The notes under the pieces are model-generated. The model worked only from the letters and a program-made list of their open reading frames with translations, had not been told where the DNA came from and ran no database searches. The position numbers and the translations under genes are program-made. Shown piece after piece: positions 19,457 through 24,072 of a DNA stretch of 37,383 nt; positions within the stretch are counted from its first letter, which is position 1, and the number at the start of each line of letters is the position of its first letter. Origin of the DNA: an uncultured Methanobacteriaceae archaeon (GTDB taxonomy: Archaea > Methanobacteriota > Methanobacteria > Methanobacteriales > Methanobacteriaceae). The stretch covers positions 1-37,383 of the forward strand of contig CACZOU010000008.1 in assembly GCA_902782945.1 (NCBI GenBank), given 5' to 3'.

Positions 19457-20212
19457 TTATATTCCTTCTGTTTTATCAATATGTTTTGTTACTTCAACCA
19501 TTAATTTATGAAAGTCAAGGGAATCTCTATCACGTGGCCTTGGTAAATCATCATTGATTATTTTTTTAATAGTACCTGGCCTTTTTGAGAAGACAACAAT
19601 TTCATCTGCTAAGTAAACGGCCTCTTCTACATCATGAGTAACAAACACAATAGATCTATTACGTTTTCTCCAATTCTCAACTATTTGTTCTTGAAGATTT
19701 CTTTTTGTTTGGAAATCTAATGCACTGAATGGCTCATCCATTAATAATGTTTCAGAATGATTAATCATAGACCTGATAATAGCAACACGTTGTTTCATTC
19801 CACCAGATAATTCATGAGGATAACTATATGCAAAGTCTTTAAGTCCAACAGCATCAAGATATTTCAATGCTCTTTCCTTATTTTCTTCCTCTGATTCTCC
19901 TGCTATTTTTAAACCAAATGTTACATTATCCATTACATTAAGCCATGGAAATAATGAATATTCCTGAAAGATAAATCCTCTATCACTTGAAGGTTTTTTT
20001 ACTATATTACCATTATGTTTTATAGTACCTTCTGTTGGATTTTCAAATCCCTCCATCAACCTAAGTAGTGTTGTCTTACCACAACCAGATGGACCTATGA
20101 AACATACAAATTTACCTGTTTCAAGAGTTAGGTTAATGTTTTTTAATGCTGTAACCTCTTCATTTTCATTGTTAATGAATCTTTTTGATACGTTTTCTAT
20201 CTCAAATGTCAT
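19457..20212 (-). CDS. ABC transporter ATPase, nitrate/sulfonate/taurine type
   Basis: A 251-aa ATPase of the SsuB/TauB/NrtD group. Walker A GPSGCGKTT at 40-48, Q-loop FQEYSLFPW at 82-90, signature LSGGMKQR at 135-142, Walker B TLLMDEP at 155-161, and H-loop FVTHDVEEA. It energises import through the adjacent permease; its start is 10 nt after the permease stop. Last gene of a three-gene operon; a T-run follows. The substrate class is defined only to the sulfonate/nitrate/bicarbonate family. Confidence 0.93.
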   Translation of the reverse strand: MTFEIENVSKRFINNENEEVTALKNINLTLETGKFVCFIGPSGCGKTTLLRLMEGFENPTEGTIKHNGNIVKKPSSDRGFIFQEYSLFPWLNVMDNVTFGLKIAGESEEENKERALKYLDAVGLKDFAYSYPHELSGGMKQRVAIIRSMINHSETLLMDEPFSALDFQTKRNLQEQIVENWRKRNRSIVFVTHDVEEAVYLADEIVVFSKRPGTIKKIINDDLPRPRDRDSLDFHKLMVEVTKHIDKTEGI

Positions 20213-20221
20213 ATAGTCACC

Positions 20222-20977
20222 TTACCAGAATATTTGTTCTTGTATTTTTGTAAATATGAAATCAAATACTATTCCAATAAATCCTATTAATAACATACCT
20301 ACTACTGTTGAACCAGTATCAAATATATTTGTTGATGTTAAAATCATATAACCTATACCAGAACTTGAACCAATCATTTCACCAGAAATTGTACACATTA
20401 ATGCTATACCTACCGCTACTTTTAGTCCTGAGACTATGTAAGGTACTGTTGAAGGTATTATTACTTCTCTTAACATTTGACTGTTGGAAGCACCAAAAGA
20501 CATAGCTGCTTCAATTAATACTCTTTTAGTTCTGTGAACACCATCTACTGTATATACTAGTATTGGAAATACACATCCCATGAATATGATGAATACTGCT
20601 GGTGCTATTCCTATTCCAAACCATAATATGGAGAATGGAATCCATGCCATTGGTGGTATTGGTCTTAATATACTTATAACTAAACTAGATAATCTTTCTA
20701 ATCTTTCAGACCATCCCATAATTATTCCTAATAATACTCCAACTACTGATGCAAAAACCATACCTATAATAACTTTGTATAATGTATCCCATACATCAGT
20801 GAATAATTCACCTGTACTCCATAATTTTATGAAGGAATTAACTACTTCTACAGGTCCTGGAAACATATATGATGGTAATACAGTTAATACATCAGCTAAT
20901 ATATACCATACTATTACGATAAGAATAGGTAAAATTAACTTATCTAGTCCCATATAATATTTTCTTTCTTCTGTCAT
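20222..20977 (-). CDS. ABC transporter permease, nitrate/sulfonate/taurine type
   Basis: A 251-aa integral membrane protein (SsuC/TauC-like) with about six spans. The cytoplasmic EAA loop is EAAMSFGASNSQMLREVIIP near residue 156, which docks the ATPase. ISILRPIPPMAWIPFSILWF is the family's characteristic segment. It is the middle gene, 28 nt after the binding-protein gene and 9 nt before the ATPase gene. Confidence 0.93.
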   Translation of the reverse strand: MTEERKYYMGLDKLILPILIVIVWYILADVLTVLPSYMFPGPVEVVNSFIKLWSTGELFTDVWDTLYKVIIGMVFASVVGVLLGIIMGWSERLERLSSLVISILRPIPPMAWIPFSILWFGIGIAPAVFIIFMGCVFPILVYTVDGVHRTKRVLIEAAMSFGASNSQMLREVIIPSTVPYIVSGLKVAVGIALMCTISGEMIGSSSGIGYMILTSTNIFDTGSTVVGMLLIGFIGIVFDFIFTKIQEQIFW

Positions 20978-21005: not shown

Positions 21006-21950
21006 TTATGCAGTGTAGAATAATTTTTCATCACTAAATGTTTGATTTAACACTCTTAAATCTTTTTCTGTACTTATGAAATCTCTTACATCTTGTTTGT
21101 ATGTATCATTTAAGTCAGATACCCAGCTCATGTTAGCTAATATTTGTCCTTCTAAGGTTTCATTAGCTACAATGTTACGTGGTAAATACTTTACACATCC
21201 GTATGGATCATTTTCTAGTTTTTCTGTAGCATTTTTATGTATTTCTGCTATTTTTTTAACTTTATCTGGATGTCTATTTGCGAATTTATCAGTAACTACT
21301 ACTACACAACATGGATGATTTTCTAATATCTCATGAGATGTATCTACAACTGTCATATTATTTTGTTTTTCAGCAATTGACATATATGGTTCATATGTTA
21401 ACATTGCATCAATACTTCCAGTTTTTAATGCATCATTCATGGATGCTACTTTCATACTTGGACTTGTTATATCTGACATTGTCATGTCATGTTTTTTTAA
21501 GTCGTATTGTAGTAACATGTATTGTATTGAAGATTGACCTGGTGTAGCTATTGACTTTCCTTTTAAATCTTCAATTGATGTAACATCAGGTTCATTAGTT
21601 ACTAATCCACTACCTTCTAGTTGAGCTCCTGCAACGATTTTTATAGGTACGTCTTTTGATATGGATGATAATACGGGTGTTACTCCCACATATCCTACAT
21701 CAACTGTCCCGCTTGTCATTGCACTTATTAAATCTCCACCATTATTATATTCATGTAGTTCTACATTTAACCCTGCATCTCTATACATGCCTGAAGCATT
21801 TGCTACAAATAATGCTGCATCGTGATCTGAAGGTAAGTATCCTATTGATACTGTATCATCATCTGAGTAGAATGATGTATATGTATAGGATACTACTGCA
21901 AGGACTACAATAATTACTATTATTAAATCAATGTATTTTCTTTTTAGCAT
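21006..21950 (-). CDS. ABC transporter substrate-binding protein (SsuA/NMT1-like)
   Basis: A 314-aa periplasmic-type binding protein, membrane-tethered by an N-terminal span at about 8-27 that lacks a lipobox cysteine. The mature part has the SsuA/THI5 pattern: IGYLPSDHDAALFVANASGM, then GGDLISAMTSGTVDVGYVG, DLKGKSIATPGQSS and SIDAMLTYEPYMS. The ligand could be an alkanesulfonate, taurine or another small anion. AGGAG lies before the ATG. It is the first gene of the operon, facing nifS across a 449-bp region with three TTGCCCGAT copies, so a sulfur compound is my favoured substrate (inference). Confidence 0.87.
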   Translation of the reverse strand: MLKRKYIDLIIVIIVVLAVVSYTYTSFYSDDDTVSIGYLPSDHDAALFVANASGMYRDAGLNVELHEYNNGGDLISAMTSGTVDVGYVGVTPVLSSISKDVPIKIVAGAQLEGSGLVTNEPDVTSIEDLKGKSIATPGQSSIQYMLLQYDLKKHDMTMSDITSPSMKVASMNDALKTGSIDAMLTYEPYMSIAEKQNNMTVVDTSHEILENHPCCVVVVTDKFANRHPDKVKKIAEIHKNATEKLENDPYGCVKYLPRNIVANETLEGQILANMSWVSDLNDTYKQDVRDFISTEKDLRVLNQTFSDEKLFYTA

Positions 21951-22399
21951 TCTTTAATAGCTCCTTGATTTACTAAAATAAACAAATTTAAAATAAACTA
22001 TATTATTTTTTTTATTGAAAAATTAATTTGTTTTTTTTTTATTGTTGCCCGATATTATTTGTTTTATTGCCCGATTAATATTATTATATTAATTATATTA
22101 TTTTTGTGTTTTGTTTAATTTAAAGTAAACTATGTTAGTCTTCTATTAAAAATAATTTTTGTCTATTTTTATAATCAATTTGTCTGTTTTATTGCCCGAT
22201 TTTTTCAATCGAATTATTTATAATAATATTATAACAATAGTTATATTTTTAGTATTATTAATATGTTTCAATTTAGGAATTATAAGAATAGCTTTAAATA
22301 GTATTAATATGAAATATAACAATGTGAAATAAATAACAATGTGAAAGAATTTTATTATAAAAATCATTATTAAAAAAAATAAATCGGGAGAAAATAAAA
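21951..22399. promoter_or_regulatory. Divergent control region of the ABC operon and nifSU, with three TTGCCCGAT boxes
   Basis: TTGCCCGAT occurs at 22045-22053, 22067-22075 and 22192-22200. Copies 2 and 3 share 17 identical bases, TGTTTTATTGCCCGATT. Copies 1 and 2 are 22 bp apart, about two helical turns. These are the only GC-rich islands in an otherwise T/A-rich stretch without ORFs. A plausible nifS box A is TTTAAATAG near 22294. The region contains no gene that I can support. Confidence 0.6.
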
Positions 22400-23650
22400 A
22401 TGGCACATGAATTAATATACATGGATAACTCAGCAACTTCACCAGTAGATGAAGAAGTACTAAAAGAAATGTTACCATTCTTTAACGAAAGATTTGGAAA
22501 CGCATCAACATTATACAGATTAGGAGTAGACGCAAAAGAAGTACTTGAAAAAGCAAGAAAGCAAGTAGCAGACCTAATCAATGCAGATCCAAGTGAAATA
22601 ACCTTCACAAGTGGAGGAACAGAATCAGATAACATGGTCATTAAAGGAATAGCATTAAAAGAAATACAAAAATCAACAGAGGAAAACCCTAGAAACCACA
22701 TCATAACTTCTGCAATAGAACACCCAGCAGTACTAAAAACATGTGAATTCCTAGAAAAATTCGGATTTGAAGTAACATACTTACCAGTAGACGAAGATGG
22801 ACTAATAAGTCTAGACGACTTAAAAAATGCAATAAAAGACAGCACCATCTTAATTACAATCATGCACGCTAACAACGAAGTAGGTACAATCCAGCCAATA
22901 AAAGAAATAGGAGAAATAGCAAGAGAACACAACATACCATTCCACACTGATGCAGTACAAAGTGCAGGTAAAATACCAGTAGACGTAAAAGAACAAAACA
23001 TAGACCTATTATCATTATCAAGCCACAAAATAAACGGTCCAAAAGGTGTAGGAGCAGTATACATCAAAAAAGGAATAAGACTTGAAGTATTCATGCACGG
23101 TGGAGGACAAGAAAACGGACTAAGATCAGGAACTGAAAACATACCTGGAATTGTAGGATTCGGTAAAGCAGCAGAACTTGCTAATGAAAGATTAGAAGAA
23201 CACATGAAACACAACCAAGAAATCAGAGATGCATTAATAGAAAAAGTATTAGCAAACATTAAAGACTCATACGTAAATGGTAGCCTAGAACACAGATTAC
23301 CAAACAACGTACACTTCAGATTCTCAGGAGTAGAAGGAGAATCACTAATTTTAAGATTAGATAACGAAGGAATAGACGGAGCAACTGGATCAGCATGTTC
23401 AACCCATGATCTTAAAGGATCACACGTATTAGCAGCATTAGGAATAAAACCAGCATTATCTCACGGTTCACTAAGATTATCCATAGGACCAGAAAACTCA
23501 ATCGACGATGTAGACTACATAGTAGCATCAATTAAAAAAGTAGTAGATTATCTAAGAGACCTATCACCACTATGGGATAACGAAGAAGACAAATACATAG
23601 GAGATAGGTTTGAAAAACCAGTAGAAGATGAAGATTTAGACAGATATTAA
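22400..23650 (+). CDS. nifS: Cysteine desulfurase (NifS/IscS family)
   Basis: A 416-aa PLP enzyme that takes sulfur from cysteine for Fe-S cluster assembly. MDNSATSPVDEEV begins the fold; His108 is in AIEHPAVLKTCE, HTDAVQSAG follows, Lys210 (SSHKINGPKG) binds PLP, and Cys333 (GSACSTHDLKGSH) is the persulfide-carrying residue. The C-terminal 25 or so residues are an acidic extension. CGGGAG lies before the ATG, and nifU follows 35 nt after the stop. Coding-strand composition is rich in A and C, as in other apparently well-expressed genes here. Confidence 0.95.
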   Translation: MAHELIYMDNSATSPVDEEVLKEMLPFFNERFGNASTLYRLGVDAKEVLEKARKQVADLINADPSEITFTSGGTESDNMVIKGIALKEIQKSTEENPRNHIITSAIEHPAVLKTCEFLEKFGFEVTYLPVDEDGLISLDDLKNAIKDSTILITIMHANNEVGTIQPIKEIGEIAREHNIPFHTDAVQSAGKIPVDVKEQNIDLLSLSSHKINGPKGVGAVYIKKGIRLEVFMHGGGQENGLRSGTENIPGIVGFGKAAELANERLEEHMKHNQEIRDALIEKVLANIKDSYVNGSLEHRLPNNVHFRFSGVEGESLILRLDNEGIDGATGSACSTHDLKGSHVLAALGIKPALSHGSLRLSIGPENSIDDVDYIVASIKKVVDYLRDLSPLWDNEEDKYIGDRFEKPVEDEDLDRY

Positions 23651-23685: not shown

Positions 23686-24072
23686 ATGCAATACAGTGAC
23701 AAAGTTATAGAACATTACACACACCCACGAAACACAGGTGTAATAAAAAACCCAGATGGTGAAGGAACAGTAGGAAATCCAGTTTGTGGAGATATCATGA
23801 CAATCTACATAAAAGTAGATGATGATGAAAAACTAACTGATGTAAAATTCAGTACATTTGGATGTGGAGCAGCAATAGCTACAAGTAGTATGATTACAGA
23901 AATGGCTATTGGAATGGATATAGATGAAGCATACAAAATATCAAGAAATGACGTAGCAGAAGAATTAGACGGACTACCACCAATTAAATTACACTGTTCC
24001 AACCTAGCAGCTGATGCATTACAAGCAGCTATAGAAAACTACAGAGAAAAAAAAGCAAAAGGTGAAGAATAA
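23686..24072 (+). CDS. nifU: Fe-S cluster scaffold protein (NifU/IscU N-domain)
   Basis: A 128-aa scaffold on which NifS-derived sulfur and iron form a transient cluster. The three conserved cysteines are Cys34 (NPVCGD), Cys60 (FGCGAA) and Cys104 (LHCSNLA), with Asp36 completing the ligand set. It lacks the ferredoxin and NFU domains of full-length NifU, so it is IscU-like in length. It is co-transcribed with nifS. T-rich sequence after the stop is a likely terminator. Confidence 0.95.
   Translation: MQYSDKVIEHYTHPRNTGVIKNPDGEGTVGNPVCGDIMTIYIKVDDDEKLTDVKFSTFGCGAAIATSSMITEMAIGMDIDEAYKISRNDVAEELDGLPPIKLHCSNLAADALQAAIENYREKKAKGEE

Follow-up and report, generated by a model that had tools for sequence, protein, structure and literature searches.

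A question raised by this locus is why a short box, rich in G and C, should stand three times in the divergent gap between a transporter operon and the genes nifS and nifU of a methanogen, and whether it is this box that links the two. The window analyzed here is the whole stretch of 37,383 nucleotides from an uncultured Methanobacteriaceae archaeon, and the gap spans positions 21951–22399. On the minus strand it is flanked by an ABC operon encoding an NMT1/SsuA-like substrate-binding protein (21006–21950; the match to TIGR01728 is just under the cut-off), a permease (20222–20977) and an ATPase (19457–20212). On the plus strand a cysteine desulfurase NifS/IscS (22400–23650) and a NifU/IscU scaffold protein (23686–24072) are encoded. 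These identities agree with the initial annotation of the region, which also reported the box TTGCCCGAT at 22045, 22067 and 22192, a 22 bp phase and 17 bases common to copies 2 and 3; all of these observations were reproduced.

On the plus strand the nine-letter box occupies 22045–22053 (copy 1), 22067–22075 (copy 2, 22 bp from copy 1) and 22192–22200 (copy 3), and copies 2 and 3 have the 17-mer TGTTTTATTGCCCGATT in common. Read on the strand of the ABC operon the box is ATCGGGCAA. The G+C content of the gap is 15.8%. The window contains three exact copies compared to 0.05 expected from shuffles, and 0 out of 100 shuffles reached three; if the gap itself was shuffled by dinucleotides 3000 times, at most one copy per shuffle was obtained. 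Another genome of the species has all three copies in the same place. A genome-wide scan, proposed in the initial annotation as a way to find other sulfur or Fe-S targets of the box, gave no further copy, as the only exact matches in the whole 1.7 Mb genome (n = 3) are those in the nifS/ABC gap. With zero copies outside the gap we rejected the box as a genome-wide operator; it is not shared with other sulfur promoters of the same genome. The overall picture is mixed, since the box is not scattered at random over the genome, yet the gap of most relatives is without it. The exact nine-mer is missing from the corresponding gap in the other species examined, and G012 has ATCGGGCTA there.

We also searched for two boxes at the 22 bp spacing in 84,980 species, a collection from which the window's own genome is possibly absent. 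The result was 41 stretches with scattered bacterial matches only, and no archaeal title was among the matches listed. From the pattern length alone approximately 7 single chance matches are expected, so that repeats, and not chance, account for part of the 41 stretches. In the Bacteroidaceae MAG RGIG8907 (L093) the double box is matched five times, mostly at a distance of 44 bp, which reflects an unrelated tandem array. Within the window, AATCGGGAG in the nifS leader (22380–22390, just 5' of the start codon) has ATCGGG in common with the box, and seems, from its sequence, to belong to the ribosome-binding region.

A second motif in the gap is the palindrome ATAAC-N3/4-GTTAT at 22231–22244, with tandem relatives at 22316–22344. 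The first of these sites is a predicted sulfur operator of the N4 form (ATAACAATAGTTAT; ATAACTATTGTTAT on the ABC strand), and exact ATAACWATWGTTAT occurs once in the window, at 22231. The predicted operator on the nifS side consists of two copies of ATAACAATGTGA on the plus strand (22316–22327 and 22333–22344, the second 17 bp after the first), and ATAACAWTGTKA accordingly occurs twice, at 22316 and 22333. A TATA-like box of nifS, TTTAAATA, was read from the sequence at 22293–22300 on the plus strand, where it aligns with TTTAAATACTACTTT of the relatives. Throughout the genus, a TATA box of the TTTAAATA type in the nifS promoters is closely followed on its 3' side by copies of ATAACAWTGTGA/ATAACAWTGTTA, and the transporter promoters contain ATAACATTGTTA, ATAACAATTGTTAT or ATAACTATTGTTAT. 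The palindrome overlaps the TATA box or sits just downstream of it at nifSU, and likewise at the ABC operon in many relatives.

To quantify this we counted TAAC-N3/4-GTTA in up to 300 bp upstream of the genes. The palindrome was found upstream of nifS in 15 out of 18 regions and upstream of the transporter in 10 out of 29, compared to 0 out of 18 and 0 out of 29 for the reversed control, where two of the genomes behind the 18 nifS regions belong to the window's species and divergent pairs may count one site twice. The promoters of sulfur and Fe-S genes throughout the genus are thereby enriched in the palindrome, which represents a predicted marker of a sulfur regulon. No description of it was found in the literature searched, which covered few subscription papers, so that its novelty is not proven.

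This bears directly on the proposal of the initial annotation that the box itself is the operator of one regulator for both the ABC operon and nifSU. Three copies in a divergent gap and zero elsewhere in the genome are in favor of it. All three boxes, however, are flanked by the palindrome on one side and the translation start of the binding-protein gene on the other, which places them in the predicted 5' leader of the ABC operon, and they have a single orientation, sense to that operon. One orientation and the confinement to the ABC leader are an argument that the box is not a symmetric divergent operator. Moreover, the palindrome separates the boxes from nifS, whose TATA box lies approximately 90–250 bp downstream of them, the nifS promoters of the relatives are without the box, and the motif that the ABC operon, nifSU and other sulfur genes share is a different one. 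We therefore leave very little probability to the box as the common operator. The idea of a regulatory motif shared between sulfur uptake and nifSU is supported in part: it holds in spirit, but mostly by way of another sequence, and the shared switch is, judging from these promoters, probably the palindrome and not the box.

The palindrome is also found at further sulfur genes. In the relatives it precedes nifS, the ABC operon, cysK/cysE (cysE is divergent from cysK, with the palindrome in between), O-acetylhomoserine sulfhydrylase, sufC and thiI, as well as ThiS-like, homocysteine-biosynthesis (HcyBio) and glutamate-cysteine ligase genes. In the window's genome (G000) together with the relatives, LarE-like PP-loop, SDF symporter and nitrogenase-component-1-like genes are added to this list, and the palindrome also stands before a ThiF/HesA/MoeB-like gene, a name that comes from reading its sequence alone. 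Other genera possess the palindrome, too. Exact TAACWATTGTTA sites occur eight times in the window's genome, and for seven of these a gene was read downstream: one in the nifS/ABC gap, two in the cysK/cysE gap, one each 5' of glutamate-cysteine-ligase-like, ThiF/HesA-like and small uncharacterized protein genes, and one 5' of O-acetylhomoserine sulfhydrylase, from which a ribbon-helix-helix-like gene diverges. In the stretch that was read around the eighth site (C97:24866), this site falls within an ORF.

Two of the genes next to the palindrome deserve a separate remark. In several species (L143:1618-1900, L156, L205, L206, L248) a protein of approximately 80 residues, starting with MNKFDIDGKKIE in the window's genome, is encoded shortly after the palindrome; by eye only it is barstar-like, and the copy of the window's genome has no Pfam match. 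At L213 (G012) a nitrogenase component 1-like gene (PF00148) lies approximately 130 bp downstream of a palindrome at 814, and by analogy it could be a sulfur-scavenging relative of nitrogenase.

We compared the gap to operators that are known from comparable settings. The SurR operator of Thermococcales, GTT-N3-AAC(-N5-GTT), is archaeal and sulfur-linked, and like the sites seen here it is built from AAC and GTT half-sites close to the TATA box. Their order is reversed, though, as the palindrome reads AAC-N3/4-GTT, and no SurR site was found in 21951–22399 with up to one mismatch. NrpR has the operator GGAA-N8-TTCC, which like the one proposed here is a palindrome for a repressor in methanogen promoters, but its targets are nitrogen genes and not sulfur genes; allowing up to one mismatch, the gap contains no NrpR site either. 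The methanogen redox regulator MsvR likewise has a palindromic operator, TTCG-N4-CGAA, which is missing from the gap; the closest site, with one mismatch, is within nifS at 22478. In bacterial regulons of the IscR/CymR/MetJ type one operator family serves Fe-S assembly or cysteine/methionine genes together with sulfur transporters. The joining of Fe-S and sulfur genes with transporters by one operator family is alike, whereas the setting here is archaeal with TATA-type promoters, and a homologous regulator was not identified.

Regarding the protein that might bind the palindrome, a coiled-coil protein with a ribbon-helix-helix-like N-terminus (L144:1653-2786) attracts attention, since the palindrome lies between its gene and the divergent O-acetylhomoserine sulfhydrylase gene (metY). 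Related N-termini are encoded in most genomes of the genus. We judged this protein an unlikely regulator because it is confined to the genus, plus one weak distant match, and because its G007 locus has no palindrome core, while the palindrome itself occurs in other genera. A 130-residue HTH_3 protein with a Cys-rich C-terminus (L224:1010-1402, G014) is encoded directly upstream of a glutamate-cysteine ligase gene that has the palindrome in its promoter. No copy of it was found in the other loci examined, and as a candidate regulator it is only a lead.

What, then, is the role of the box? When the palindrome was searched for together with TCGGG downstream of it, matches were obtained, besides the gap of the window, in G012 (transporter, thiI and SDF symporter, with an extra match inside the symporter region), in G007 (HcyBio) and in G015. 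At four unrelated sulfur promoters, namely the transporter, thiI and SDF symporter of G012 and HcyBio of G007, ATCGGGC follows the palindrome core after 12–14 nt, compared to 31 nt between the core and copy 3 on the ABC strand of the window. In the relatives ATCGGGC lies approximately 26–28 nt from the TATA center, and because of this spacing it is predicted to be at the transcription start. WATCGGGC is rare, with 9 copies in the window's genome, 22 in G012 and 9 in G007. In the window's genome 3 out of 9 are non-coding, and all of these are the three boxes in the nifS/ABC gap; in G012 3 out of 22 are non-coding, all at the palindrome promoters of the transporter, thiI and the SDF symporter. 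If 139 genomes of the family were scanned for the palindrome, 6–22 nt and ATCGGGC, four matches (three in G012, one in G007) were obtained versus two control matches in two other genomes. This excess is modest, and most palindrome promoters are without ATCGGGC. Chance is still unlikely, because three matches fall into one genome and lie at unrelated sulfur genes. The presence of ATCGGGC at four further sulfur promoters in two relatives indicates that the box is probably not meaningless.

The origin of the three copies has to be weighed against this. Two imperfect units of an approximately 130 bp tandem can be aligned in the gap, unit 1 (21985–22101) with copies 1 and 2 and unit 2 (22117–22232) with copy 3. 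The gapped alignment has a score of 54.5 compared to a maximum of 45 in 2000 dinucleotide shuffles, which by this comparison means that copies 2 and 3 arose by one tandem duplication and are not independent. If the boxes are masked the score drops to 31, a value reached by 3 out of 500 shuffles. Copy 1 looks like the product of a further short duplication. The boxes might be passive passengers without function: a GC-rich word that arose by chance in an AT-rich spacer and was copied there by local tandem duplication, ATCGGGC in the relatives being coincidental or unrelated. The significant duplication spanning copies 2 and 3 and the gaps of the relatives without the exact box would fit such an origin. 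We nevertheless regard this explanation as rather unlikely: the GC-rich core is identical in all three boxes although the surrounding repeat has diverged, and ATCGGGC recurs at a narrow spacing at unrelated sulfur promoters, four in number, of which three account for all non-coding copies of one genome.

A further thought concerns the RNA. AUCGGGC near the mRNA 5' end could be a leader element that binds a protein, a small RNA or a metabolite and affects stability or translation of the ABC operon. The box is always sense and within the predicted leader, and a small hairpin CGAUU-GAAAA-AAUCG is found at copy 3. Against this, Rfam gave no match up to E = 1 for nine loci, the fold of the ABC leader is only slightly better than that of shuffles (z −2.05), and no common structure is apparent by eye in the leaders of the relatives. 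An action of the box in RNA is therefore unlikely in our view.

With a probability of roughly one half we favor the reading that this gap controls two divergent transcription units of a sulfur/Fe-S regulon, and that the box is an accessory element close to the start site of some promoters of this regulon which was amplified in this species. A sulfur-status regulator, probably a repressor, would bind the palindrome and block TBP/TFB or RNA polymerase under sulfur sufficiency, and its release would follow when sulfur is short. The box, ATCGGGCAA on the ABC strand, would be added at a subset of the palindrome promoters. In the present species the ABC leader would have been lengthened by the approximately 130 bp duplication and the short one, leading to three boxes, and the most likely role of these would be a promoter-proximal tuning of the ABC operon, in which the box either is bound by another DNA-binding protein or serves as a favored sequence for the first transcribed nucleotides. 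One may tentatively go further and consider ATCGGGC at the transcription start as the recognition site of a second, sulfur-specific input beside the family-wide palindromic sulfur operator, giving a two-element promoter of which one element was amplified here to tune a single transporter; this is possible but doubtful.

Little is understood of how methanogens perceive and allocate sulfur, despite their heavy dependence on Fe-S enzymes. The palindrome provides a concrete, testable candidate sulfur regulon for gut methanogens, with target genes and predicted sites, for which the regulator can now be sought. The box could represent a second layer of control at the transcription start, and the locus offers an example of a leader that gained copies of a putative regulatory element by local duplication.
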